Source: Carnobacterium maltaromaticum DSM 20342 (GTDB lineage: Bacteria > Bacillota > Bacilli > Lactobacillales > Carnobacteriaceae). Taken from it: a stretch of 64,000 nucleotides of DNA. Both the position numbers and the translations under genes were made by a program. Every line of letters starts with the position of its first letter. Position 1 is the first letter of the stretch. Below are positions 2,610 to 63,406 of the stretch, piece by piece. The DNA is taken from NCBI RefSeq assembly GCF_000744945.1, contig NZ_JQMX01000005.1, positions 1-64,000 of the forward strand, in the 5' to 3' direction. The notes under the pieces were generated by a model. That model saw only the letters and a program-made list of their open reading frames with translations, searched no databases and had not been told where the DNA came from.

Positions 2610-2815
2610 ATACTTAATAATTATTTATGACTAAATTTTAGAAACGTATTTTGATGCATTTATGACCAATAATCCATATGAATAGTTTCAAATGACCTTA
2701 AAAAGCTCCTCACAACATTCAACTATCACTATATTTTAAAATTATCTTTGATTTCTCCTTGAACAATGAACTTATTAACTTCTGATGTATTCATTAAAGA
2801 CTGATAATATTGGAT

Positions 2816-3409
2816 TTAAAAGCCTAATTTAAAATCAGCCAAACTTTCACCAATTTCTTGATCTGTGATACCTAAATATCGTTTTGTAATCTTTTCGCTA
2901 GAATGATTAAAAATAATCATTAAGGTTCCAATATCTTTTGTCTTCATATAATAATTATAACCAAATGTTTTTCTCATCGTATGTGTGGCCAAGTCTGATC
3001 TCTCTAATTGGATACCTACATTTTGAAATACACGGTATAATCCATTTACAGTTAAGTGACTATTCCCCACATGTGAAGGAAACAAATAATCCTCTTCAGT
3101 TAAATTCATTTCTTCAATATACGTTTTAATTAATGGCTGTAAATTTTCTAAATGTAGTGTTTGAGTTTTCCCCGTTTTTTTCTCAATAATTTTTGGTGTA
3201 AGTGAATATGAAATATCTTTCACTTTTCGACAAACAATATCTGAAGCACGTAATCCAACATTGATTCCAAATAAAAAGAGAAAAACATTTCTTTTAGAAT
3301 ATTTTGTTCGTCTAAGAACAAAAAGTACATCGTCAATATCTGATTTTGTTCGAAGTGGTTGCACATTATAAGACAAAAAATCATTCCCTTCCGGAATTTT
3401 TAACTGCAC
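2816..3409 (-). CDS. Tyrosine recombinase, XerC/D-like, short form (copy 1)
   Basis: This is a compact site-specific recombinase of about 190 aa. The catalytic residues are visible in order: Arg in GLRASD, Lys in KKTGKTQT, HTMRKT (His-x-x-Arg), the NHSSEK segment and the nucleophile Tyr in TKRYLGI. The N-terminal arm-binding domain of longer integrases is largely missing. The start is uncertain: GTG at 3409 follows AAAGGA, but comparison with the paralog at 45036-45620 suggests a TTG at 3376 behind GGAAGGG, which aligns SYNVQPLRT with TYNVQPLRT. Such proteins are common on Lactobacillales plasmids, where they may resolve dimers or invert segments; the role here is inferred. Confidence 0.85.
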   Translation of the reverse strand: MQLKIPEGNDFLSYNVQPLRTKSDIDDVLFVLRRTKYSKRNVFLFLFGINVGLRASDIVCRKVKDISYSLTPKIIEKKTGKTQTLHLENLQPLIKTYIEEMNLTEEDYLFPSHVGNSHLTVNGLYRVFQNVGIQLERSDLATHTMRKTFGYNYYMKTKDIGTLMIIFNHSSEKITKRYLGITDQEIGESLADFKLGF

Positions 3410-3540
3410 TATTTCCTTTCTATTGTACCATATTCATGCGGTTAGTTATACAAAATTCAGAAACCCTTTATTTGAAACAAAGTAACCGCACTATTTTATC
3501 TAAAATAGTGCCCTTGTTTTATTTTTAATTTTCTCCTCAG

Positions 3541-3569
3541 TTTCATGTTGTTATTTATAAAACATGAAA
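3541..3569. repeat. Palindrome between recombinase and TA module 2
   Basis: TTTCATGTT and AACATGAAA face each other across 11 bp. A second short palindrome, CACTATTTTA-TC-TAAAATAGTG, lies at 3489-3510. They could be recombinase sites or regulatory elements. Nothing else fills this gap. Confidence 0.45.
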
Positions 3570-3575
3570 TTATCT

Positions 3576-3604
3576 TTGCAACACATAGTTTTTTATACTA
3601 TAAT
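3576..3604 (+). promoter_or_regulatory. Sigma-A promoter of TA module 2
   Basis: TTGCAA (3576-3581), a 17-bp spacer and TATAAT (3599-3604) stand about 20 bp before the antitoxin start, so the leader is very short. Confidence 0.7.
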
Positions 3605-3624
3605 AAATAAAAGGAGTGTTTAAA

Positions 3625-3855
3625 ATGTTGCTAACAAAATCAAGAATGCAAGGTAGTTCTGTAGTGATAACACTACCACCTCATAATGGTAAAAAACCAG
3701 AGTCAAATAAAGAATATTTAGTTGTCTATTCTTCAGACGGCACTATTCTTTTAGTTCCTAAATTATCTGACCCTTTTGAAGGCGGAGATGAAGGAGAGTT
3801 TTATGAATTGGATGATTGGGAAGATATTTCACCTGAAGGGAGAGAATTAATCTAA
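3625..3855 (+). CDS. MazE-like antitoxin (module 2)
   Basis: A 76-aa protein with an N-terminal AbrB/MazE-like segment (SRMQGSSVVITLPP) and a strongly acidic C terminus. I chose ATG 3625 over the in-frame GTG at 3616 because the ribosome binding site AAAGGAG ends at 3616 and would overlap the GTG, while spacing to the ATG is ideal. The stop shares one base with the toxin start (TAATG). Together with the dedicated promoter this is a complete two-gene module. Confidence 0.82.
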   Translation: MLLTKSRMQGSSVVITLPPHNGKKPESNKEYLVVYSSDGTILLVPKLSDPFEGGDEGEFYELDDWEDISPEGRELI

Positions 3856-4196
3856 TGTCAGAAAAAGAAAAATATATTCCTAACAAAGGAGATATTGTTT
3901 GGGTTGATTTTGATTCCTCATCAGAACAAAAAAATCAAAAACGTCGATCTGGTTTGGTTGTTTCTCGTTATGATTTTAACAGAAAGACACGATTTGTAAT
4001 TATTTGTCCGATTACCTCTACAATAAAAGACCTACCCACTAGATACACACTCCCAACTGAAATGGATATTAATGGACAGGTCCTCATTTCTCAATTAAAA
4101 TCACTGGATTTCAATTCTCGGAATTTAGTACTTGCGGATTATTTACCATTACAAGATATGGCAAAAATAGATCAAATTATTGACTATATATTTTAG
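3855..4196 (+). CDS. MazF/PemK-type endoribonuclease toxin (module 2)
   Basis: The 113-aa protein has the MazF fold landmarks: GDIVWVDFD, RRSGLVVS, the ICPITS strand and GQVLISQLKSLDF. The loop after the first strand is SSSEQKNQK rather than the usual GHEQ, so it diverges from modules 1 and 3. It is translationally coupled to its antitoxin through a one-base overlap. Thirty bases after its stop the IS1380 element begins, so any native terminator was probably displaced. Confidence 0.86.
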   Translation: MSEKEKYIPNKGDIVWVDFDSSSEQKNQKRRSGLVVSRYDFNRKTRFVIICPITSTIKDLPTRYTLPTEMDINGQVLISQLKSLDFNSRNLVLADYLPLQDMAKIDQIIDYIF

Positions 4197-4225
4197 TTTT
4201 TCTATTCTTAATAACTAGCATCTAT

Positions 4226-5899
4226 CCTGAATAATTCATAGATCTAATTTTTTTGGGAAAATAACGTTTATACATCGATTTGAGTTGAATTTTCTTTTTT
4301 CAACCGGTTTGTACTTGCGAAAACAGATTTCCTTTTGTTTTTTTAACGAAGATAGGGAATCTGGAGCTGTTTTTGGGCGCACGAATCCCTTAGTGATTCC
4401 ATGTCTTTTTAAAAGCTGATTGCTATTTTACGCTTGCCAACTGAGTTGCTGGATTTTATCCAGTAACTGATAAAACAAGTCTTGATAGACATGATAGGAG
4501 CTCATCCGTAAAAGCAATCTTCGGCCACTGTGGACTAATTTACCCGACACCTTGAACAGGCGGAGCCGCAATGTGTCGACTTGGAATGTCGCTTCCTTTT
4601 CAGGTAGACAGATGGTCTTCATGAAGTTGACCAGGTTGTAAGCCAACAGGCTTACCATCATCCGCGCATGATTTTCCAAGAAGCTTGAGCTATCCGTCTT
4701 GTCGAAATAGAACCCATTTTTCGCTTCCTTGATGAAGTTCTCCATGGTGCCACGTTTATGGTAAATCTGGAAGATGGTTTTCGCGGATAATTCCTCGTGA
4801 AAATTAGTGACCACGTACTCGTGACTGAACACCAGCTGATTCGCTTCCCGAGTCGATTTGATACAGATTCGACGTTTTTGGGGCCAGCTATTGGCTTGAT
4901 AGAACGCGGAATAGTGGTGGACTTCCCTTTCATCCCAGGAATGGTTGTCCCCAACCAGGACATAGGATTCCGCTAGTTTTTCCACGACTTTATTTGATTT
5001 CAGGCGGATGACATAGAAACTTCCGTTGGATTCACATGTATCATAGACCTCGGGCGTCGCAAAGCCGCTGTCTCCCCGGACCAAAATATCAGTGCAGGGA
5101 AGGACTTGACAGTAATGTGCGAGCATCGGTGCCAGAAAATCTTTTACACCTTTTGACGTATACACATTGCCAGAACGAAGTTCTGCTTTCAGAAAGTCTC
5201 CCGTGAGGCCATCGAAGGCCACCAACGGATGATAGCCCTGTGTGCCGTAATGGGCATTGTACTCAGTCTTTTCTTGGTTCCCGAACGTATCCGAATGTGT
5301 GGAATCTAAATCGATGATCATTTGGGTATTGTTCCGTTCCATGCGGACCTTGTCCAGCATGGCTTGGTTCAGTTCCTGAAACTGTGCAATGTTCTCCTCG
5401 CTGATCCGGTCCCAGAAGCGGGATAGTGAGGCCTGGGAGGCGATGGCTTCCTTATCCAAAACCAACCGAAAAATGGGATCTTCCTTCAAGAGATTGGCGG
5501 ATGAATCCGCGGAATATCTGGCAATCAACTGGAAGAGCAGCTGTTCGAGCAGGGAGATGTTGTCATGAGTCCAATAAATACGGTCCTCATTGAAGTGGAG
5601 GAATTGCTTCGCGAACGAATAAAATCCAAGCGAATCCATGAATTCCTTCACCAAGATGAGACCGGCATCCGACGAAAGATTACCACCGGTGTTTGACACC
5701 ACCATTTTAGAGTTGAATTTTACGTGTTTTTCCTGTAATGTAGCCATTGAGAGAACCCCTTTCTTGGTTTAGTTTAGTCACTTTAACCATAGCAGATTGG
5801 GGTTCTTTTTGTACACCCAAAGGGTGCGGAAAAAGAAAAGAAGAACCGCGCGTTAATAGGCTTTTAATAGAGTATCAGAAATTCTATGAATTATTCAGG
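4226..5899 (-). mobile_element. IS1380-family insertion sequence, complete
   Basis: Bounded by perfect 17-bp inverted repeats CCTGAATAATTCATAGA (4226-4242) and its complement (5883-5899), 1674 bp in all, with a single full-length transposase. The flanking bases (CTAT on the left, TTCT on the right) are not a direct repeat, so either the target duplication is lost or the element rearranged after insertion. GC content is visibly higher than the neighbourhood. Confidence 0.85.
4428..5747 (-). CDS. IS1380-family DDE transposase
   Basis: At 439 aa this is the normal length for the family. The N terminus (SNTGGNLSSDAGLILVKEF), the catalytic Asp region IIDLDSTHSDTFG, the second Asp in LVRGDSGFATPEVYD and the C-terminal Tyr/Arg/Glu region YHKRGTMENFIKEAKNG are all present and the frame is open, so the enzyme looks functional. 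It would cut and rejoin the 17-bp ends of the surrounding element. Confidence 0.9.
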   Translation of the reverse strand: MATLQEKHVKFNSKMVVSNTGGNLSSDAGLILVKEFMDSLGFYSFAKQFLHFNEDRIYWTHDNISLLEQLLFQLIARYSADSSANLLKEDPIFRLVLDKEAIASQASLSRFWDRISEENIAQFQELNQAMLDKVRMERNNTQMIIDLDSTHSDTFGNQEKTEYNAHYGTQGYHPLVAFDGLTGDFLKAELRSGNVYTSKGVKDFLAPMLAHYCQVLPCTDILVRGDSGFATPEVYDTCESNGSFYVIRLKSNKVVEKLAESYVLVGDNHSWDEREVHHYSAFYQANSWPQKRRICIKSTREANQLVFSHEYVVTNFHEELSAKTIFQIYHKRGTMENFIKEAKNGFYFDKTDSSSFLENHARMMVSLLAYNLVNFMKTICLPEKEATFQVDTLRLRLFKVSGKLVHSGRRLLLRMSSYHVYQDLFYQLLDKIQQLSWQA

Positions 5900-5946
5900 T
5901 TCTAATTGATTCTATAAGCACTTTACTTAGCGATACATAAAAATTG

Positions 5947-5955
5947 TGCTATAAT
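5947..5955 (+). promoter_or_regulatory. Extended -10 promoter of clpL
   Basis: TGC-TATAAT, an extended -10 element, lies about 70 bp before the clpL start and about 50 bp inside the boundary of the IS1380 copy. No good -35 is seen. I find no clear CtsR heptad pair or CIRCE element, so heat regulation is not visible in the sequence. Confidence 0.5.
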
Positions 5956-6025
5956 ACAGTTGTAGTCTTAAAGGATATTATGGTCACTAAGTTACACATA
6001 TAAATTTTTATGGAGGTGTTGTAAT

Positions 6026-8140
6026 ATGGCAAATTTTTACGGAAATGATCCTTTTTTCAACAATGATATGGATGATGTTTTCAATCAATTATTTCGGCGC
6101 ATGGATAATCAAAATTCGGAGCGTGCACGGTATTTAGTTAATGGACAATCGTTGACACCGGATGAGTTTACTCAATACCGAGCAACTGGTAAGCTACCCC
6201 AAAATAATAAAACAATAGAAGTATCTAAAGATGGTAAACAGGCTGTTAAAAAAGGAGGGATTTTAGAAAAGTTAGGGACTAATTTGACAGAACAGGCTCG
6301 TGATGGATTACTAGATCCAGTGATTGGACGTGAGAAGGAGATTCAAGAAACTGCAGAAATTTTGTGTCGTAGAACGAAAAATAATGCAATCTTAGTTGGT
6401 GATGCCGGTGTAGGTAAAACTGCAGTCGTCGAAGGTCTGGCACAAGCAATTGTGGCTGGTAAAGTTCCAGAAACGATTCAAGATAAAGAAATCTATTCGA
6501 TTGATTTATCGTCTTTGGAAGCAGGAACTCAATATCGCGGTTCTTTTGAAGAAAATATTAAACAGCTGGTAGAGGAAGTTAAAGCAGCTGGTAATATTAT
6601 TCTATTCTTCGATGAAATTCATCAGATTCTCGGCACGGGTGCCACTGGTGGTGAAGATGGTGGCAAAGGATTGGCTGATATCATTAAACCTGCTTTGTCA
6701 CGTGGCGAGTTGAGTGTAATCGGGGCTACGACTCAAGATGAATATCGCAATACTATTTTGAAAAATGCGGCTTTGGCACGGCGATTCAATGATGTTGTGA
6801 TTAATGAACCGACGGCCGCTGACACTTTACGTATATTACAAGGTATTAAAGAGCTGTACGAAAAACATCATCATGTTGTATTACCAGATGATGTTTTGAA
6901 GGCGGCTGTGGATTATTCAATCCAATATATACCACAACGCACTTTGCCAGATAAAGCTATCGATTTGATCGACATGACTGCGGCTCATTTAGCGGCTAAA
7001 AATTCGCAAACTGATGTTGAGACATTGGATCAACGCCTTAAAAAATTAGAGGCAGCTAAGGAGGCCGCCATTAAATCGGAGGACTTTACAAAAGCCGCTG
7101 ATATCAAGAAGTCGATCGAGGAAACCAAGCAAAAAATTAAAGAAACGGATCAAAAAGAAAAAATCACTGCCACGATTGATGATGTGGCACAATCGGTTGA
7201 ACGTTTAACTGGTATACCAGTTTCTGATATGGGCGCTAATGATATTGAGCGCTTGAAAAATCTTGATAAGCGTCTGAAAAGTAAGGTAATCGGTCAAGAT
7301 GAAGCGGTTGAAATGGTAGCAAAAGCAATTCGGCGTAACCGTGCGGGCTTTTCAGAGGGTGATCAGCCGATTGGAAGTTTTCTGTTTGTGGGCCCAACTG
7401 GCGTAGGAAAGACTGAATTAGCTAAGCAATTAGCCTTAGATATGTTTGGAAATGAAAATGCGATTATTCGGCTAGATATGAGTGAATATGCTGATCGTAC
7501 AGCTGTGTCGAAATTAATTGGTACCTCGGCTGGATACGTAGGCTATGATGATAATGCTAATACTCTAACTGAACAGGTTCGGCGTAATCCATATTCCATT
7601 GTATTATTAGATGAAATCGAAAAGGCTCATCCACAAGTATTAACGTTACTGTTACAAGTGATGGATGATGGGCGCTTAACGGATGGACAAGGCAATGTCA
7701 TTAATTTCAAAAATACGATTATTATTGCTACTTCTAATGCTGGCTTTGGTAATGAAGCATTAAGTGGTGACAAGCAACGAGATCAGTCATTAATGGATAA
7801 GTTAGCACCATTTTTCCGCCCAGAATTTCTGAACCGTTTTAATGGAATCGTGGAATTTTCACATCTGACTAAGCAAGACTTAAGTCAAATTGTCGATTTG
7901 ATGTTGGCGGATGTACAAAAAACTTTAGCCAAAAAATCCATCAAACTTGAGGTAACTAAAGCGGCCAAAGATTGGCTGATGGAACAAGGCTATGATGAAG
8001 CAATGGGTGCGCGGCCGTTACGGCGAGTAATTGAACAACAAATTCGTGATAAGGTAACGGATTTCTACCTTGACCACTTAGATGTCAAAAACTTGAAGGC
8101 TGATTTAGTGGATGCTGAGATTGTGATATCGGCAGCTTAG
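6026..8140 (+). CDS. clpL: ATP-dependent Clp ATPase / disaggregase ClpL
   Basis: ClpL is a class I AAA+ unfoldase of Firmicutes that resolubilises aggregated proteins and raises heat tolerance. The protein has two nucleotide-binding domains: Walker [11 protein letters not shown] (about residue 125), Walker B LFFDEIHQ, then after a coiled middle domain (about 330-380) a second Walker [11 protein letters not shown] and Walker [12 protein letters not shown]. The N-terminal double Clp repeat of ClpC is absent, typical of ClpL, and 704 aa is the expected size. The start ATG follows GGAGGTG. Plasmid-borne clpL copies are known in lactic acid bacteria and Listeria; the IS upstream fits an acquired copy. 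Confidence 0.92.
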
Positions 8141-51959: not shown

Positions 51960-52154
51960 TTTCACTTATTTGATAAGAACTATTTCTTTTATACGGGGTC
52001 AATGGAACATCTTAACGAAAAGTTGCGGTATAATCGACTATTAAAAAATAGAAACGCTGATTTAACAGCATTTCTATTTTTTTTAGACTTTAAGGCTCCA
52101 AAATTGTCTGGAACAATCGAACGAAAAGTTGCGGTATCTTTATAAACACGAACA

Positions 52155-55100
52155 TTAGAGAGAATCAGGTGTTTTTAATGGTCGTAATGATCCGTCTTCT
52201 AGACCTTGATTATACTGGAATGAATATTTACCAACAAAGTTTATATGCTCAAATAAAAGTGGAGATAATTTTCCTATAAGTTCTTCTGAACAGTCATATC
52301 CTTCTACTTTCATCTGCTCCAATACTTTTTCAAGATACAGTGTATTCCAATAAATTACTGCATTTGTTACAACGCTTAAAGAGGTTAACTGCTCCTCCAT
52401 TCCATCAATATAAGTTTGATATAATTTTCCATTTCTTCCGTAAAATATACTTCTGCAAAGTGCATGACGTGATTCACCCTTATTTAGCTGTTCAAGTATT
52501 TGACGAGCATAAATTTCATCTGAAAGATAGCGTAGTTGATGTTTGGTCTTATAAACCTTTCCATATTCTGTAATTGCTTTTCCAAGTGAAGTTGGTTGAC
52601 CAGATCGTTGTAACGCTCGAGTTAGTTCAGTTGCATTGACTTTACCAGATTTCAGGGAACCTGCTACTCGAAGTATATCTTCCCAATGTTCTTCAATTAA
52701 ATCAGTGTTAATTCGACTTTTAGTAACATCATTCAATAAACCATAATCAGCATTTTTTTCAATTCTCCATAGTTTGGTACCATGTTTATTCGCAATTCTA
52801 GGACTAAATTGAAAACCTAGTAGTCCAAATAATCCAAAAATAAGGTCACTATATCCAGCTGTATCTGTCATTATCTGAGTGGGCTGTAATCCGCTGGTTT
52901 GATTAAGAAGTCCCTCTAATAAGTAAAGAGAGTCTCTTAACGTGCCTGATACAACCATTCCATGGAAACCAATATAATGATCTGAAACAAAGTTATAGAA
53001 AGTGATTCCTCGGCCTTTGCCAAAGTATTTTGGATTACTAGCAGAGTAAAGTGATCTTTGCGGTGTTATATACCGAATTCCATCTGCAGACGCCATTTCT
53101 CCATTTCCCCAAGCAAGAGCCAGTTCCAATTTCTTATGTGAATGAATAATTTTTTGATTAGCTGCAGTTAAGGTATCAATACGTAAGTATTGATGAGCTA
53201 CATAGGTGAGCCTATCATACTTCAAACTATCAATATTATTTTTGGGAACTGGAGAAAATCCAATATTACATGATTCCGCTAACAATACTGCTAAAATACT
53301 AATATCTAACTGTTTCATTCTGGATTCTTTCTCATTTAAATGTTTAAAGGATTGAGTTAACCCAACTCGTTGGTTTACTTCCAATAATAAATCGGATAAA
53401 TCAATGCTAGGCATGAGTTGGCGCACACGTGATTTAAACTCTTTTTCATTAGGCTGCTCATTTCCCTTTTTCAAATTTGAAACAACTACTTTTACTTCAC
53501 CATTTATTTCTTCAAGCCTTGCCATATTAGATGCATCCCAATTTGATTGTGTTTCTATAAAAGATAGAGACAAATCTTCGCTTAATTTTTGTACAGCTAA
53601 GGTGCCTGAAGAAGGTAAGTCAAGTTGAGTAATCAAAACTTCCCGTTGCTCTATCCACGTAGAATCATCCAATAAATAGCTCATTGGGTCTGCATATTTT
53701 TCACTATTAGTAACAAATATGTCATGCTTTTTTAATCCTTGAAAGAGAAGTTCTAGCCCAGCAATTAACACGCACTGATTTACTGAAGTGGGATTTTCAT
53801 GTATATAATATTGCCATTTTTTAGATAAACAGGGTTCAATATCATAAAAATGGTCTAGTGTTATTGGTTTTGGAAAAACTTCTTTTATCTTTTCCCAAAC
53901 GACTAAGCTATCTGCCCCGTAATTGTTACCTTCAAAGTTAATGGATAAAAGAATAGAGGGGATGAACTTTTTAATTTTCCTGAATGCTTTGCGAAGTTCA
54001 TTAATTGCAATGGGTTCTTGTTCGTTACGAACAATATCCTTAACTTGAAAAATGGCTGCATCCATTTCTTCTTTTTGAAATTTATCTGAAATAACTTTTC
54101 GAATTTCTTGGTTAGTAATGGATTCGTCAAATAAAAGTTCTACAATTTTTGATAACGTAAGAGCAGCTCGATCTAAATCTTTTATTGTTCTCATTCGATC
54201 TTTTATTTCTTTATTTTTTGCACGTCTAAAAATAGCATCTACATATTTTGATAGTGCTAAAAGTTGTTCATCCATTGCTTTTTTCTGATGTTCATAAACA
54301 AATGCCACTAAATGAGCTATTTGGCGATTTAGTGGCATTCTTTATATAGCTTGAGCTTTTGCTTTGAAAGCATAGCTGGCAAGTTTTTTTAATTTCCCTT
54401 CAGGAATTACAGAAAAGTCCCAGTTTTCTGTATGAAAAGATTGGAACATAATCAGTCTATTAAACCCACGAATAAGCTCCTTTTGACTTTCGTCAATCAA
54501 AGGGCTTCGTAAAATATCCATTTTAAGCGTTGCACCACGTATAGGCTCACCAACAAAATCAAATAATTCTAACAAACGTTCTACCTCTGATGTAGCAGGA
54601 ATCTCAGAAAGTAATTTATAGAGTTGTTTTTCAGAAGAATCAATAATTTTAGATACAAAGCGTTCAAAAGTAGAAAAACCTGGTAAAATAATTTTTTCAT
54701 CCAAACATTTTTTTAATAGCATATCAAAAAGCATATTATCCGTCTCAGTTGTATACCATGACCGATCAAGTAACCAATCAGATAAATATTTTTCTACTGC
54801 ATTATCAGTAAATAGTACATAGTTATAGTAGTCTTGTATAAGTTTCATATGTTGCCAAATTGTTTGTTTACGTGTGTACCCATAAAATTCCTTGTAGTCA
54901 ATATTTAGTTGCGCAGCTAAATGCTGAATGACCACTATTGGAAGTGTTTCAAAATCAGATGTAAAGCATCCGAGGAACCTGACGGTTCCTAGTTGAACTG
55001 CGAATCCTAATTTTGTGGACGATTTTTTCATTTTTGCAATAACCTCTTTATCAGAATCATTTAAATAAAAGTAGAGATTAAGTTGTTCTTTAGATGGCTC

Positions 55101-55160
55101 ATTTATAAATTTCCCAAATCCTTCTTTGTGGTGTCCCTTCAATTGTTTAATTTCTACCAT
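52155..55160 (-). pseudogene. tnpA: Tn3-family transposase TnpA with one in-frame stop
   Basis: The gene begins at ATG 55160 and reads 272 codons to ATA-TAA-AGA-ATG (stop at 54342-54344), then continues in the same frame for 727 codons to 52155. Joined, it is about 1000 aa, the normal Tn3 length, with conserved stretches such as HSHKKLELALAWGNGEMASADGIR in part (DDE region) and SDHYIGFHGMVVSGTL. The only lesion is the TAA. The second part has its own ATG two codons later but would lack the N-terminal DNA-binding domain. Confidence 0.88.
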
Positions 55161-55344
55161 TTTAATCCCCCTGAGTGGTTACCAAAAACCAATGTTTTTG
55201 TAACCTCATATTTTTTGAAACTCGATACTGAATAACTAGCTTTTCTAAGTTACAAAAACTAGTTATAAATAAGTTTACAAGAAACACTTGCAAAAATATA
55301 GTTATTTACCGATAATAAAGTAAAAGAGCATCAGGAGGAATTAT
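55161..55344. promoter_or_regulatory. Probable res region between tnpA and tnpR
   Basis: The 184-bp divergent gap contains dyads such as GGTTACCAAAAA...TTTTTGTAACC and repeated AACTAG(T/C) motifs (TAACTAGCTT, AAACTAGTTA), as expected for resolvase subsites and divergent promoters. Confidence 0.55.
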
Positions 55345-55929
55345 ATGATAATAGGATACGCAAGAGTGTCAAAAGATGAGCAACATCTAGATCGACAATT
55401 AGATCAGTTAAAAAAATATGGAGTTGAAAAAATTATTAAAGAAAAATATACTGGAACAAAAAAGTCACGGCCAGGAATTGAAGAACTGTTAAAAATAATC
55501 CGGACAAATGATACAGTAGTTGTAGAAAGTATTTCTCGACTTGGTAGAAATACTTTGGATATATTGACTCTTCTTCAGCACTTAGAAAAAGAAAAGGTAG
55601 AATTCATTTCGTTGAAAGAAAATATGGATACTTCTACGCCTACCGGAAAAGCAATGCTCCAGATGATGAGTGTGATTGCTGAATTAGAGAGGAATTTATT
55701 AGCCGAGCGTGTAAAAGAAGGAATAACTGCAAGCAGGAGACGTGGCGTAAATATTGGAAGACCAAAAATTCCTCAAGAAAAATTGAATTTAGCAATGAGA
55801 ATGTATGACAGTGGAGATTATTCGATTAAAGAAATTCTTGAATCTACCACTATTTCTCAAGGAACGCTTTATCGAGAAATAAATAAAATGAAATTGAAAA
55901 AAATAGAAGATATAAAAAACGAAAGCTAA
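55345..55929 (+). CDS. tnpR: Tn3-type resolvase TnpR
   Basis: A serine recombinase of 194 aa: IIGYARVSKDEQ (nucleophile Ser), ESISRLGRNT with catalytic Arg residues, AELERNLLAERVKEG, and a C-terminal helix-turn-helix (YSIKEILESTTISQGTLYR). It is divergent from tnpA across the res region and would resolve transposition cointegrates. A short hairpin with T-run follows (about 55925-55958). Confidence 0.9.
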   Translation: MIIGYARVSKDEQHLDRQLDQLKKYGVEKIIKEKYTGTKKSRPGIEELLKIIRTNDTVVVESISRLGRNTLDILTLLQHLEKEKVEFISLKENMDTSTPTGKAMLQMMSVIAELERNLLAERVKEGITASRRRGVNIGRPKIPQEKLNLAMRMYDSGDYSIKEILESTTISQGTLYREINKMKLKKIEDIKNES

Positions 55930-56050
55930 GTTGTTAATCCAACCTAGCTTTCGTTTTTATACCGCAACTTTTCGTAAAGATGTTCCATTGACCCCGATTC
56001 CATTACCTTTTTTCTATTTATACATTCAAATGTTCCTTTGATCAAAAGCA

Positions 56051-56722: not shown

Positions 56723-56919
56723 TTCTTAACCACCTTAGTTTTCTTTCTTTTAGTGTATGGGGCTCCTGTAGCAACAGATTAGAAAGTTCCATAGGAATCC
56801 GAACAATAAAAAGTAAAACACTGATATAACTACATTTTTATTATTAGTCTTACCTTTTTTCTTGATTAGATGTTTTTTTCCTCCAGATTATTATAAATAA
56901 ATCGGAAATGAATAAAATT

Positions 56920-57810
56920 TTAAAACAACTCTTTTCCAATATCAAACCCTATAGCGTCTTTTTTGATTATATCTATAACAACTTGATTCCCATTGAAATC
57001 TGCAAATGCCAGTGCATGTAAATAAGATTTTATCGCTTCATCTTTTTTTCCAAGCTTCATTAAATTAAAGGCCTTTTCATACGTTAAAAAATCTAAGTAG
57101 TATGCTAAACCTTCATTTTTCAATAATCTAATCCCTAAATTACATAAGTTCATGCTCTTACTGTACTCATCAATTTTAGAATAGAATTTGGCTGTATTGT
57201 AATAAATCTTTGCAATTTCAGGACTTTCATTTATTGTATCGATCAACGTAAACAATTCATCTAATTGCTCTAATGAACGTTCAAAATAAGTTAATGCTTT
57301 ATCGCTCTCATTTTGCAAATCATAAGCTATTCCAATTCCATTGGTGGCTGAAACATCTAAAAAATCTATACTTTTTTCTAATTCACTATCCAGCACTTGA
57401 TTAAAATAATAAATCGCGTCTGTCGGACTTTCTTTCCCCATTAAGCTAGTAATTCCCATAAAGTAATAATAAAGTTTCCAGTCATAAATCGTTTCTAATT
57501 CGTCTTTTTTTATACTTGATTCAAGTAATTCAAAGGCTTCTTTGTGCTTAACTTTACTACAAAGTTCTCTAACTTCTTTAAATACTGGATTATTTTTATG
57601 TTCCGCATCTAAAGCATAGTCATAAATGCTATTGAACTCAATATTTAGTCTTTCTGCTAACTTTAGTAAAATTGAAATCGTTGGTACACTTGCCCCATTT
57701 TCTAAATTACTAATGGTTGCCTGCGTACAGATATTTTCAGCCAACTCTTTTTGAGTTAATCCACGTTTTAAACATTTGCTCTTAACTTCTTCCCCTATTT
57801 TTGTAGTCAT
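56920..57810 (-). CDS. PlcR-like (RNPP) peptide-responsive regulator, 296 aa
   Basis: N-terminal XRE helix-turn-helix (KCLKRGLTQKELAENICTQATISNLENGASVPTIS in two parts) followed by about 230 residues of TPR-like helices, e.g. ALTYFERSLEQLDELF and KAFNLMKLGKKDEAIKSYL. The layout and the ENIC..SxxENG sequence match PlcR of the RNPP family, whose TPR domain binds an imported signalling peptide. ATG follows AAAGGAATTAAAAA. Directly divergent is a 27-codon ORF (57933-58016) with promoter, ribosome binding site and terminator, the natural candidate for its peptide or target. Confidence 0.85.
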   Translation of the reverse strand: MTTKIGEEVKSKCLKRGLTQKELAENICTQATISNLENGASVPTISILLKLAERLNIEFNSIYDYALDAEHKNNPVFKEVRELCSKVKHKEAFELLESSIKKDELETIYDWKLYYYFMGITSLMGKESPTDAIYYFNQVLDSELEKSIDFLDVSATNGIGIAYDLQNESDKALTYFERSLEQLDELFTLIDTINESPEIAKIYYNTAKFYSKIDEYSKSMNLCNLGIRLLKNEGLAYYLDFLTYEKAFNLMKLGKKDEAIKSYLHALAFADFNGNQVVIDIIKKDAIGFDIGKELF

Positions 57811-57844
57811 TTTTTAATTCCTTTCTTTTTTATATTTTACCCTC

Positions 57845-57873
57845 TTGATTAATCATACAATATTTCGTATTAT
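57845..57873 (+). promoter_or_regulatory. Promoter of the 27-codon ORF with an overlapping palindrome
   Basis: TTGATT (57845-57850), 17-bp spacer, TATTAT (57868-57873). ATAC-N8-GTAT (57855-57870) overlaps spacer and -10, a geometry like the PlcR box (TATG-N8-CATA). Probable binding site of the divergent regulator. Confidence 0.6.
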
Positions 57874-57932
57874 TAAGATATAAATTAGTATTAAAAAATC
57901 AATTTACTTATAAAGAATAGGAGGTTAGTACA

Positions 57933-58016
57933 TTGACTCTCGAAGAGACTATTCTAATATCTAACGCAACACAATTCCCAATTGTTACACCCTTTGGAAA
58001 TGTTCCATACGTATAA
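57933..58016 (+). CDS. Candidate leaderless signalling peptide, 27 aa
   Basis: TTG 57933 stands eight bases after a perfect AGGAGG and opens 27 codons (starts MTLEETILIS, ends TPFGNVPYV). There is no hydrophobic signal segment; the last nine or so residues are mostly hydrophobic/aromatic with Pro and Gly, like mature peptides of RNPP systems. It has its own promoter and a terminator nine bases after the stop, so it is a complete transcription unit rather than the edge of a larger gene. The role as ligand of the PlcR-like regulator is inferred from position alone. Confidence 0.5.
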   Translation: MTLEETILISNATQFPIVTPFGNVPYV

Positions 58017-58024
58017 AAAACTAC

Positions 58025-58062
58025 AAAAAAATAAACTATTAGCTATAATAGTTTATTTTTTA
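58025..58062 (+). terminator. Terminator of the 27-codon ORF
   Basis: AAATAAACTATTA (58029-58041) and its complement (58046-58058) with a GCTA loop and flanking A- and T-runs. Confidence 0.8.
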
Positions 58063-58090
58063 TTTGGTTATTTTTGCATAACCCCCGAAA

Positions 58091-58126
58091 CGGGTTCAAT
58101 GGAACATCTTTACGAAAAGTTGCGGT
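58091..58126 (+). repeat. Solo Tn3-type terminal repeat
   Basis: GGGTTCAATGGAACATCTTTACGAAAAGTTGCGGT (quoted here only in outline: it begins GGGTTCAATGGAACATCT) repeats the 51995 end in the same orientation with few changes. No partner end to its right was found. Confidence 0.75.
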
Positions 58127-58377
58127 GTAAATGCGAATGATTAAAGAATATTAATCTTCATTCGTCGCTATTTTATTTTGGAAAACAGCGTCATTTATTC
58201 TGTCTAAAGCTTTAATTTTCACAATCTCTTGTTCATTCAAAAGAGCCGATTAACAGCCTTTCAATAGAGCCAGTCAACTAGACCATTTCGTTTTCACAAT
58301 CTATCAGGCTGTAACACTTACGGGACATGGTACTTGGTAAAAGGTGGATTATGTCTTCCTAACAGTTAAATAACTTT
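58127..58377. other. Remnant of a minus-strand gene end
   Basis: On the minus strand about 58151-58240 reads LNEQEIVKIKALDRINDAVF and a stop, apparently the C terminus of a lost gene. The rest of the gap holds no gene. Confidence 0.35.
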
Positions 58378-60348
58378 TTATAAATCGTCTAAAAATAAAT
58401 CTTCTTGTTCTTCTATTGTTTTTAATTCTTTTTTAATATCTTCAGATAAGTTATCTAACATATCCATCCTGTACTTTATCATAGAACTCATAAATATATC
58501 GTTTAAAATATTAGATATTTTTATTTGTTCAAGATTAACCCCTACTCCAAAAGAACCTACGTCTTCCCGACTTTTAAACTCTTCAAAACGTTCTTTATAA
58601 ATCTCACGCATCTCAATATTAGAACCCAAAGTAACTTTCATCATTTCAGAGGCGATCAACTCTAATTTTTTATCATTATTAATTTGATGCAACTCAGGTC
58701 TGTATTTAACATTTTTATAGTTTGTAAATTTCCTAAAGACATAGTAGATAAAAATAGATCTATTGGTTTCTCCGGTTTCTGTGGGATAAGGAAACAACAT
58801 ACATCTTATAAAAAAAGAAGTAGAATTTTCTTTTTTTCTGATTTCAAATCTATATTTTCTATCTAACTCTGTTATATAATCTTTAAATGTTGGTTCCATC
58901 TCTATTTCATCTAGAATAGGTACTATAACTTCTTTTTTTAATTTTACTTTATCCAAGGTTTCATCTAATTCATCAAAATAATCTAATGTAGTAATTAATG
59001 TTCTCCAATTATTACTATTATCATTTAGAATTAATTTTTTAAAAAAAATCCGTTTTTTTTCGTCACTAACAACTTCATATAAAAAGTAAGCAGCATAAAA
59101 CTCTTGAAAAATATTATGAACAAAATACCAATTATCCCCTTCTTGATACATAACACATAAACATACCGAAAGATCGTACAAAACGGAGTCTGATGTTACT
59201 TGTCCATTACTCAATAATAAGGATTTTTTGATGATTTCTTTCATTTCATACTTTGTAAACCCTTTTTTTTCTCCTTTGTATTTAAAGTAGGTATGGAAAC
59301 AAATTCTTGAAAATAAATTCAATAGCTCTGAATCTGAAAATGGAGTATGAAAATCTCTAGAGTACTTACCTAACTTTATAGCATCATGTTCTTGATACAA
59401 AATATCATATACCTTTAATAAAAATTGAGCTTTTACTTTAGGGAACTCTGTTGTTTTTTGAAATGTTCTAAACATCAATAATAACAATATAGGATTGGAA
59501 GCCAAACTTTTAAATGAATTAAATAAAGACTCATCTAATAAGCTTCTAAACTCTTCATTTTGCTCATCAGTATAAATGTCAATTTTAGAAATTAAACAAA
59601 TTGCTTGTTCTTTATTTAATCCTGTTGTTCGGTATTTTTCTAATCCTGGTATAGTTTCTAAATATCCTATTTCTGGCATAGCTCTGCTAGTAACTACAAA
59701 ATTATTTTTATCATTTTTACATATCAAGTCATTTATTTCATGAATCGCTATATCGAAATACTCAGATGATATTTCATCAAAAGCATCTAAAAGAAATACA
59801 AATCGTCCTTTTTTGGCCATAAATTCAAAATATTTATATTCGATATCAAATCCTAGCACACACATTTCATCATAGATAAATTTTAAAAAATTTCTTCTCA
59901 TGTTATCCTTTTTTTCCAAATTATATTTTCTCAATTCAATATAAATAGGGATCTTATTCTCATGAAACTCCCCTTTTTGCAGGGAAGATAGCAGGAAATA
60001 TTTTAACATCGTTGATTTTCCAATCCCACCAAATCCTGATATCCACGCTTTCGAACTAATTGATAAAAGTGGTTTTAACGATGTAGTTAGTATATATTGT
60101 TCTATTTCTTCATTATCTTTATATTCCAAATACGTTTCTTGGTATATTTGTTGCAAAGGCATTTTTTTGTCACTTAAAACTGTCGGAACTTTTTCATATG
60201 AATTTATTGCCTTTTCAAAATATAATTTGAAATTTTTATTGAATTTAGTTTCCCACTCACTCCATTTTTCTACTCCTAAATCTATAAATCCATCATGTAA
60301 TTGTATTAGATTATGTCCTAAAAGTGTAGTAATACTAGATAAAATCAT
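58378..60348 (-). CDS. NACHT-domain STAND NTPase (candidate bacterial NLR, phage defence)
   Basis: A 656-aa protein. After about 105 N-terminal residues the NACHT core has Walker A SGFGGIGKSTML (about 105), Walker B FVFLLDAFDEIS with tandem acidic residues, sensor FVVTSRAMPE, and the winged-helix mark VHNIFQEFYAAYFL near 430. About 200 C-terminal residues form an unrecognised, probably sensing, domain without visible repeats. Bacterial NACHT proteins are known stand-alone anti-phage NTPases that trigger abortive responses. The start ATG lies 5 bp after the recombinase stop, with GGAGGAG inside that gene's last codons. Confidence 0.82.
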   Translation of the reverse strand: MILSSITTLLGHNLIQLHDGFIDLGVEKWSEWETKFNKNFKLYFEKAINSYEKVPTVLSDKKMPLQQIYQETYLEYKDNEEIEQYILTTSLKPLLSISSKAWISGFGGIGKSTMLKYFLLSSLQKGEFHENKIPIYIELRKYNLEKKDNMRRNFLKFIYDEMCVLGFDIEYKYFEFMAKKGRFVFLLDAFDEISSEYFDIAIHEINDLICKNDKNNFVVTSRAMPEIGYLETIPGLEKYRTTGLNKEQAICLISKIDIYTDEQNEEFRSLLDESLFNSFKSLASNPILLLLMFRTFQKTTEFPKVKAQFLLKVYDILYQEHDAIKLGKYSRDFHTPFSDSELLNLFSRICFHTYFKYKGEKKGFTKYEMKEIIKKSLLLSNGQVTSDSVLYDLSVCLCVMYQEGDNWYFVHNIFQEFYAAYFLYEVVSDEKKRIFFKKLILNDNSNNWRTLITTLDYFDELDETLDKVKLKKEVIVPILDEIEMEPTFKDYITELDRKYRFEIRKKENSTSFFIRCMLFPYPTETGETNRSIFIYYVFRKFTNYKNVKYRPELHQINNDKKLELIASEMMKVTLGSNIEMREIYKERFEEFKSREDVGSFGVGVNLEQIKISNILNDIFMSSMIKYRMDMLDNLSEDIKKELKTIEEQEDLFLDDL

Positions 60349-62109: not shown

Positions 62110-62763
62110 TCACAATAAATCATTCAATGAATCAAACAAATAATCAACTTTCTTCATCAGTATAGAGTTAGGTTTAATTAAATCTGGAATCATAATCGTT
62201 GTCATACACGCTCTTTTCCCAGCTTCAATTCCATTCGGTGAATCTTCAATAACAAGACACTTATCATTAGAAACATTTAATATTTCCGAAGTCTTAAGAA
62301 AAATATCAGGATTCGGCTTCCCTTTATTAACCATATCACCTGTAACAATTAGATCAAATCTATCTCGTAAATTTGATTTATCAATATAATAATTGGCCAT
62401 CGTGTGTCCTCTAGAGGTTGCAATAGCTTTTTTTATACCTAGTAAATCTAATAAATCTAACACAGATATTATACCACTTTTTATGGGAGTACCATTAATG
62501 TCTATATAATTACGTACAAAATTACGTTTTTCTTCTTTTATTGAAGTATAGTCAAAATCACTACCCATGTATTGTTGGATTAAATTTTTAGAATCTTTTG
62601 AATTAAGTCCTATTTTCTTCTTTAAAATCTCAATAGGTACATCATAATCAAAATAAGCAAATGCATGTTGCCAACCTTTAAATCCCAATCTTTCAGTATC
62701 AAAAATAGTTCCATCCATATCAAAAATCACTAATTCGATATTTTGAAATACATAATTATTCAT
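62110..62763 (-). CDS. HAD-superfamily hydrolase (beta-phosphoglucomutase-like)
   Basis: A 217-aa HAD protein: FDMDGTIFDTERLG, TSRGHT, Lys in NKGKPNPDIFL, and VIEDSPNGIEAGKRA, the classic beta-phosphoglucomutase/phosphatase set. It overlaps the phosphopantetheinyl transferase stop by eight bases and is therefore co-translated. The pairing of two HAD enzymes with a carrier-protein activator suggests tailoring in a biosynthetic pathway. Confidence 0.83.
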   Translation of the reverse strand: MNNYVFQNIELVIFDMDGTIFDTERLGFKGWQHAFAYFDYDVPIEILKKKIGLNSKDSKNLIQQYMGSDFDYTSIKEEKRNFVRNYIDINGTPIKSGIISVLDLLDLLGIKKAIATSRGHTMANYYIDKSNLRDRFDLIVTGDMVNKGKPNPDIFLKTSEILNVSNDKCLVIEDSPNGIEAGKRACMTTIMIPDLIKPNSILMKKVDYLFDSLNDLL

Positions 62764-63406
62764 TAGGTCCTCTCCTTTTGTCCATAAATTTTAATATTTC
62801 ATCTAATCTAACTGTTCTTATTTTAATAGGTAAACTTGCATAAACAGTTAAAATTTTTTCGTTTTTTAAAGTAGAGAAAAAATTTGATTTGTTTAAAGAA
62901 GAAATATTTATTTCTTTTGGATTTTTATAAAAACCTACTCCCAAAAATTTACTGTAACTTTCTTTTTTCGTCCAAATTAATGTTCTAAAAATAGGCTTAA
63001 TATCAGATGAAAAATACGATTCAAGTTCTGATTTTGTCATAAATTCAGTAATAATTTCGTCTGTGACTTTAAATATTGACTCAATATCTATACCAATTTT
63101 ATTTTTGCATAGTGCAACTGCAATTGTATCTTCACAATGTGAAATGCTCACAAATATATTTTCTTTTTTTATAACCGGGCAACCTTTACTTTTAATAGTT
63201 ATGCAAGGAGTCCCAGAGATTCCATAACATGATATCAATGCATACTTAATTAGGACTGAAGCAATCATTGAATTAACTATATCTTTTTTATTCCTATACT
63301 TAAGACAATATCTCATTCTGCACTCACATATGTCTTGATGGAAATCTTTCACTCTTAAATCTGAATATTTTTCTACTTGGAGTATATATACTTCTGTATG
63401 TTCCAA
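62756..63406 (-). CDS. 4'-phosphopantetheinyl transferase (Sfp type)
   Basis: Sfp-type enzymes load the phosphopantetheine arm of CoA onto carrier proteins of polyketide, peptide or fatty-acid synthases. The protein has SISHCEDTIAVAL, metal motif IGIDIESI and WTKKESYSKFLG with the catalytic Glu/Lys. Length 216 aa fits. In a Lactobacillales accessory region such a gene normally belongs to a natural-product cluster, which would lie to the right of the window. Confidence 0.82.
   Translation of the reverse strand: MEHTEVYILQVEKYSDLRVKDFHQDICECRMRYCLKYRNKKDIVNSMIASVLIKYALISCYGISGTPCITIKSKGCPVIKKENIFVSISHCEDTIAVALCKNKIGIDIESIFKVTDEIITEFMTKSELESYFSSDIKPIFRTLIWTKKESYSKFLGVGFYKNPKEINISSLNKSNFFSTLKNEKILTVYASLPIKIRTVRLDEILKFMDKRRGPNE

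Follow-up and report, generated by a model that had tools for sequence, protein, structure and literature searches.

Divergent from the gene of a PlcR-like regulator in Carnobacterium maltaromaticum DSM 20342 lies a 27-codon open reading frame (ORF), which raises the question of whether so short a stretch is a gene and, if it is, whether its product serves the regulator beside it. A first-pass annotation of the window, the 64,000-nucleotide stretch of DNA analysed here, had read the unit as a new leaderless quorum-sensing pair on a mobile segment. On checking the sequence, we found the promoter, palindrome, AGGAGG, ORF, and hairpin all where that annotation had placed them.

The peptide unit and its divergent regulator

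The features of the locus are as follows.

56920..57810, minus strand: PlcR-like RNPP regulator, 296 aa, HTH_3 plus TPR / RNPP_C (Pfam, PDB, AlphaFold2 fold)
57845..57873, plus strand: promoter-like TTGATT-N17-TATTAT of the peptide gene (TTGATT 57845-57850, TATTAT 57868-57873, 17-nt spacer), from sequence and kept at part of the Carnobacterium peptide loci; an alternative -10, a TATAAA/TATAAT/TATAGT-like hexamer, lies just 3' of TATTAT
57850..57875, no strand assigned: candidate palindromic operator TAATCATAC-N8-GTATTATTA, covering the promoter spacer and -10; core ATAC 57855-57858, N8, GTAT 57867-57870
57919..57924, plus strand: Shine-Dalgarno (SD) AGGAGG, 8 nt 5' of the TTG
57933..58016, plus strand: 27-codon peptide ORF MTLEETILISNATQFPIVTPFGNVPYV, TTG start, apparently leaderless (counterparts, pS/pN)
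57993..58013, plus strand: codons of the C-terminal heptapeptide FGNVPYV, candidate receptor ligand (motif spacing in 36 of 41 peptides)
about 58029..58062, plus strand: AT-rich intrinsic-terminator-like hairpin and T-run (-13.7 kcal/mol, own hairpin scan)

The TTGATT-N17-TATTAT consensus match alone was no better than chance (2 found against 2.7 expected), and a standard terminator scan, which requires G-C pairs, returned no terminator at the peptide unit; the promoter and hairpin are therefore credible because they are conserved. When 57811-58100 was dinucleotide-shuffled 1000 times, 2 of the shuffled sequences yielded a plus-strand ORF of 16-60 aa whose SD match reached 6 or more, a frequency that, together with purifying selection, ruled out a chance ORF. 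That the unit is not accidental also follows from the plasmid copies L009 and L010, which keep the operator, the reading frame, and the hairpin. Between the window and L009, the operator differed by 1 substitution in 36 columns and the hairpin stretch by none (25 of its 63 columns being gaps), and the ORF by 16 substitutions in 84 columns, with 6 synonymous and 6 nonsynonymous codons. For the ORF, pS and pN were 0.51 and 0.10 against L009, 0.46 and 0.09 against L010, and 0.56 and 0.21 against the paralogue L011. Across 12 peptides of genus g22 they were 0.58 and 0.20 overall, and 0.66 and 0.08 in the last eight codons. This excess of pS over pN, most marked in the last codons, points to selection on the protein that is strongest at its C-terminal end. 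The start codon is TTG in the window, L009, and L010, and ATG at the matching site in L011. At Rfam gathering thresholds, no known RNA matched 56800-58400.

In Pfam, the regulator matched HTH_3 (4.8e-13), TPRs, and RNPP_C (3.5e-05), the last at 23.9 bits and hence short of its cut-off of 26.5, which two of five regulator relatives exceeded. PlcR (1.4e-17) was the sole RNPP-type match at E up to 0.001 in a PDB sequence search. An AlphaFold2 model from 14 sequences (mean pLDDT 86.7, pTM 0.73) was best matched by the PlcR-PapR7-DNA structure 3u3w; PlcR took ranks 1-5, Rgg2/Rgg3 chains appeared from rank 13 on, and PrgX first at rank 35. TIGR01716 was absent from NCBIfam matches of the window regulator at E up to 0.1, and of this regulator plus five relatives at E up to 0.01. 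The HTH part showed sub-threshold similarity to antitoxin HTH models. Judged by sequence and predicted fold, both of which place it nearest to PlcR, the regulator is a PlcR-branch RNPP receptor, and the earlier description of a PlcR-type RNPP regulator divergent from the peptide gene was borne out by the Pfam, PDB, and fold searches.

Peptide genes beside related regulators

To determine how often such an ORF accompanies related regulators, we catalogued 77 distinct regulators, merging identical ones, from the host genome, three more genomes of its genus, and further genomes within the order, as well as from two plasmids and from named contigs of Enterococcus and Lapidilactobacillus. L027, which matched in the HTH part alone, and the HTH-only loci L088-L093 were left out; L122 (89 aa, internal stop) is counted in the 77 and stands outside the tree. 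One regulator search scored at most eight candidates per genome, and paralogues may be missed. Peptides were sought as ORFs whose SD match reached 5 or more and whose products carried a relaxed motif of two residues, G, one of N/D/E/S, and two to nine further residues before the end.

A divergent, SD-preceded motif ORF of 16-27 aa was present at 39 of the 77 regulators, including the window; no peptide was detected at the remaining 38, among them 11 of 19 host-genome paralogues. The host genome had 22 regulator matches, and 8 of the 19 catalogued carried the divergent micro-ORF. Since the motif was derived from the same data, the real test is the comparison of flanks rather than the motif count. 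Counted by start site, the motif occurred in 42 of 51 SD-preceded small ORFs of the divergent flank and in 1 of 49 of the other flanks, this one being the L012 peptide viewed from an adjoining second regulator. Conservation of the small ORF beside homologs of the regulator, the check that the first-pass annotation had proposed, was thus found, and the frame was intact in L009 and L010.

In the regulator tree (76 rows), all 39 peptide-bearing rows fell within a 63-row part behind the 96/83 branch, with none among the 13 rows outside it. Peptide presence took 16 changes on the tree, compared to a mean of 25.8 when shuffled and with 0 of 500 shuffles as low, which suggests repeated loss or gain, or undetected peptides. 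A 26-row peptide profile matched 20 of 396 genomes of the order, 19 of them trusted (four of the same genus, one of the sister genus, 13 of g22, and G287), and 1 of 398 sampled genomes of the class, the host genome itself; with 24 columns the profile is weak and gives no proof of absence outside the matched genomes. The match in G317 was discounted for its internal stop and lack of an SD-preceded motif ORF. We refer to g22 as enterococcal on the grounds that two peptides of one member, G379, also occur unchanged in E. rivorum.

Six of 14 plasmid records were examined as loci, three from E. faecalis and three from C. maltaromaticum, as was one of four phage-collection records. The three E. faecalis plasmid stretches (L144-L146) bore one peptide, ending YGNLPHV and flanked by two divergent regulators, and in L144 and L145 the pair adjoins an annotated replication initiator gene. 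No such peptide accompanied L147, a regulator on a C. maltaromaticum plasmid that is additional to the 77. The phage-collection record L148, labelled Enterococcus phage, contains a regulator identical to L099 of genome G287 and the peptide MFDLLALLTGISVRGNAPHQ, also present in G287, and is probably host chromosome rather than phage. A viral scan gave two weak regulator relatives, L094 and L095, with no motif peptide at L094. The gene tables of L009, L010, L144, and L145, incomplete by design, had no gene at the peptide.

Some loci departed from the common arrangement. In E. songbeiensis L082, 5' of 2501, a same-strand ORF upstream of the regulator, read by eye, ends in DGNTGHVGK, so orientation may vary. 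The divergent micro-ORF 5' of 2492 at E. rivorum L079 differs, reading MVNMTKWLVSAISICWGAYFL; a G-rich stretch precedes it, and its product is possibly another ligand type. At L041 (G003), 1501-1569, a stretch like the L015 peptide lies inside an 81-aa open frame with no matching start.

The window belongs to a 129-kb contig of a 3.88-Mb genome. Six DNA-similar plasmid records were all from C. maltaromaticum, and two matched over most of the query. Tn3-family-like terminal repeats lie at 51998(+), 55961(-), and 58095(+) (spans 51998-55992 and 58095-58126); the first two enclose a resolvase and a transposase split in two ORFs (DUF4158, DDE_Tnp_Tn3), and the regulator-peptide pair sits between this Tn3-like element and the third repeat. 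These repeats and plasmid relatives agree with the proposed mobile segment, but six of the eight host-genome pairs lie on the 3.6-Mb contig C1 or another contig, and five or six of the eight are chromosomal. Beyond the third repeat, a 656-aa NACHT-domain protein is encoded convergently with the peptide gene (58378-60348, minus strand), with no PADLOC match. A second pair on the same contig, L176 about 2790-6475 (G000:C5 about 72290-75971), has the peptide MTIDDMINLSSDLTGFSPYGNIPYG, and about 53 bp beyond its regulator lies the gene of a helicase that matches PDC-S28, a phage-defence candidate. A 4'-phosphopantetheinyl transferase superfamily protein (ACPS) at 62756-63406 (minus strand) is perhaps part of a biosynthetic cluster.

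The peptide C-terminus, the operator, and neighbouring genes

Among 41 distinct peptides (the 39 loci plus L144-L146), the motif G was followed by exactly five residues in 36 (G-[NDES]-x4-stop) and five did not fit, which places the chain end at a fixed distance. The usual C-terminal pattern is [FY]-G-[ND]-x-[PGS]-[HYFW]-[VGI], and the amino ends vary in length and sequence. The eight host-genome heptapeptides are FGNVPYV, FGDAPHI, FGNLGFG, FGDLSHG, FGDIPHG, YGNIPYG, FGNTGHW, and YGNTPWS. GNTGHV was the invariant C-terminus in 12 genomes of one genus, 10 of which had YGNTGHV. Species-specific pherotypes are usual in quorum sensing, and this invariance, being unlike them, counts against a quorum-sensing reading.

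The 39 peptides, 846 residues in all, contain 4 Lys/Arg compared to 85 Asp/Glu, and some have hydrophobic runs. Amino ends that are acidic and nearly free of Lys/Arg argue against a Sec-type leader, and by composition the peptides apparently have no export leader. The claim of a conserved, translated-looking, and apparently leaderless peptide gene is supported by composition, pS/pN, and the 39 counterparts.

In the PDB match alignment, N157 and N205 of the window regulator align with PlcR N159 and N201, which we take to be PapR contacts. N157 was kept in 35 of 39 peptide-bearing regulators and 0 of 13 outgroup rows, and N205 in 37 and 5, respectively; S211, Y244, E245, and N249 were present in all 39, and in 0, 7, 1, and 11 of the 13. 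The candidate ligand-contact residues were also mostly kept in the 31 remaining rows (N157 in 25, N205 and E245 in 27 each), which may mean eavesdroppers or missed peptides; 7 of these 'no peptide' rows are regulators added from L144-L146 and L148, and a peptide does adjoin 4 or more of those 7. Q30, T32, S34, N35, and E37, presumably recognition-helix positions, were invariant in a 15-row regulator alignment, which fits with a shared operator.

The window and L011 share the element TTGATTAATCATACAATATTTCGTATTATTAAGATA letter for letter, and in near form it had three genome matches within three mismatches. All six genome matches to a degenerate composite promoter/operator pattern with at most one mismatch were at peptide genes; elsewhere in the genome there was one match, with 3 mismatches, and the reversed control gave one match. 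Scored against 200 shuffles per locus, the operator was strong at the window, L009-L015, L096, and L128, and its standing was marginal at L021, L097, and L131. At L025, several other Carnobacterium loci, and every enterococcal locus, its score did not exceed that of the best shuffle. By these sequence comparisons the operator is limited to part of the Carnobacterium set. An arms-only pattern gave 63 rows compared to 42 for its reversed control. Of the 63, peptide operators account for 13 and the leader of the L013 peptide for one, so we claim no further targets. The search for a regulon through the operator, with composite and arms-only patterns, thus ended with no targets beyond the peptide loci.

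Terminator-like hairpins followed 33 of 39 peptide ORFs, compared to 13 of 195 simple shuffles in our own scan. No common target gene was seen, with differing neighbours at seven host-genome loci where ORFs were judged by eye. Close downstream on the regulator strand, 8 of 39 peptide-bearing loci and 13 of 38 others had an ORF of 60 codons or more with an SD before it; the 8 include a DNA_alkylation gene and the helicase matching PDC-S28. Inspection of the same seven loci by eye gave no common exporter gene, with transporter-like ORFs within a few kb at some, and the genome encodes seven oligopeptide-binding proteins as candidate importers.

A candidate receptor-ligand pair

Comparison of sequences showed coding, conservation, a genetic partnership with the regulator, an operator common to several pairs, and a terminator-like hairpin. 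We propose that the micro-gene is the ligand half and the divergent PlcR-branch TPR regulator the receptor half of a pair, and consider it likely that the C-terminal heptapeptide, bound in the TPR groove, regulates the promoter from which it is expressed. The last seven residues, FGNVPYV, would dock in this groove, and binding would alter the hold of the regulator on the palindrome across the peptide promoter. Through this feedback, which we infer along with binding and the sign of control, the peptide would set the level of its own production, and possibly of the regulator too. With the palindrome between -35 and -10, repression that the peptide either lifts or strengthens is more likely than activation of the PlcR type; with the alternative -10 the palindrome would cover the -35 region, again pointing to repression. 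The arrangement suggests repression more than activation at the peptide promoter. Repression relieved or tightened by peptide is the mode of PrgX.

PlcR-PapR of the Bacillus cereus group resembles the present pair in receptor sequence and predicted fold; there the ligand PapR7 is the C-terminus of the PapR precursor, and here the C-terminal heptapeptide is the candidate. PapR7 is the heptapeptide ADLPFEF (PMC6568020), and genes of the papR type are described as lying immediately downstream of the receptor gene (PMC9765709) and their products as Sec-secreted (PMC10075063), whereas the peptide gene here is divergent, lacks an apparent leader, and has the operator inside its promoter. PrgX and TraA are plasmid-borne RNPP repressors of E. 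faecalis pheromone plasmids (PMC4873490), and three E. faecalis plasmids bear the present kind of pair; however, the PrgX precursor is exported via PptAB (PMC10075063), and PrgX came far down the fold ranking. TprA-PhrA and PapR-TprA-like systems of streptococci share a PlcR-family receptor in the Lactobacillales, but TprA-like precursors are reported to run to about 45 aa and to begin with a basic, hydrophobic segment (PMC12445099), unlike the acidic peptides of 16-27 aa found here. The 13 tree rows outside the peptide-bearing branch, not identified as TprA, had no such micro-ORF.

The leaderless communication peptides of RopB (LCP/SIP) come from unannotated micro-ORFs with an SD, often divergent from an RNPP-type receptor, and according to the same source (PMC10518010) their class extends to Carnobacteriaceae and Enterococcaceae, with an adjacent putative target at many loci. 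In spite of this likeness, membership of the present pair in that class is extremely improbable: its receptors were selected by TIGR01716 and its peptides are mostly 8-10 aa and hydrophobic, with few longer exceptions (PMC10518010), while our regulator lacks TIGR01716, matches PlcR best in sequence and fold with Rgg2/Rgg3 lower in the fold ranking, and is paired with longer peptides bearing a G-[NDES] motif, usually Gly-Asn/Asp. The streptococcal class, invoked earlier as a model, thus holds as an analogy and not as the same family. Cell-cell signalling by these pairs is plausible; the quorum sensing proposed in the first-pass annotation would further require secretion, re-import, and density dependence.

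We entertain tentatively a variant of the receptor-ligand model in which the peptide stays inside the cell that makes it and serves there as ligand or anti-repressor, giving timing or bistability rather than cell-cell signalling. It agrees with the lack of an apparent signal sequence and the acidic composition, the lack of a common exporter, and a C-terminus kept between genomes rather than diversified, but leaderless RopB ligands are reported to be intercellular signals without canonical export or import machineries, a heptapeptide has the length of processed RNPP ligands, 5-8 residues (both PMC10518010), and the genome has its oligopeptide-binding proteins. A leader or attenuator role for the micro-ORF, or a regulatory-RNA role for its transcript, in either case with a peptide that does nothing itself, is very unlikely: a hairpin directly 3' of a short ORF would fit, but the same strand shows no apparent SD-preceded gene from the hairpin up to the convergent NACHT gene, it is the protein that is under selection, its C-terminal spacing is fixed, and Rfam gave no match. 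A small toxin or bacteriocin-like product, with the regulator as controller or antitoxin, would account for the antitoxin-like HTH similarity and the hydrophobic runs of some peptides; we give this reading hardly any credence, as the regulator is full-length PlcR-like with TPRs, the peptides are acidic and conserved in the C-terminal tail, and many regulator relatives have no detected peptide.

In a literature search whose scope was without Parthasarathy et al. 2020, reportedly a study on E. faecalis RRNPP homologues, the peptides were not found described, and peptide sequences used as queries gave no relevant paper among the matches listed. RRNPP surveys place PlcR mainly in Bacillus (PMC9765709, PMC10075063), and the strict survey level is described as demanding a secretion tag or SHP match (PMC10075063); the 'loose' output of RRNPP_detector, in the survey supplements, could list some of these pairs. 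Within the literature searched, then, a conserved leaderless pair of PlcR type was not found described, and a prior E. faecalis description is possible. The novelty claimed for the pair holds to that extent.

A more speculative reading, which we consider doubtful, is that eight parallel leaderless channels, plasmid-borne and chromosomal, operate in one bacterium through the same promoters as a self-contained network. At least six of these channels have almost the same promoter/operator, which has no close match in the rest of the genome, and recognition-helix residues are kept while each channel has its own heptapeptide. If true, plasmids would join the host's peptide conversation without bringing a target regulon.

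Collectively, if the proposed pairing is correct, Carnobacterium and Enterococcus, E. faecalis plasmids included, would hold peptide signals that have been overlooked because their genes span 16-27 codons, are absent from four incomplete plasmid gene tables, and offer detectors no secretion signal. The conserved heptapeptide is an immediate source of synthetic candidates, and the route of a leaderless peptide to its receptor, via the outside or wholly within the cell, would become testable. The pairs would then form a PlcR-type lineage of leaderless ligands beside that of RopB.
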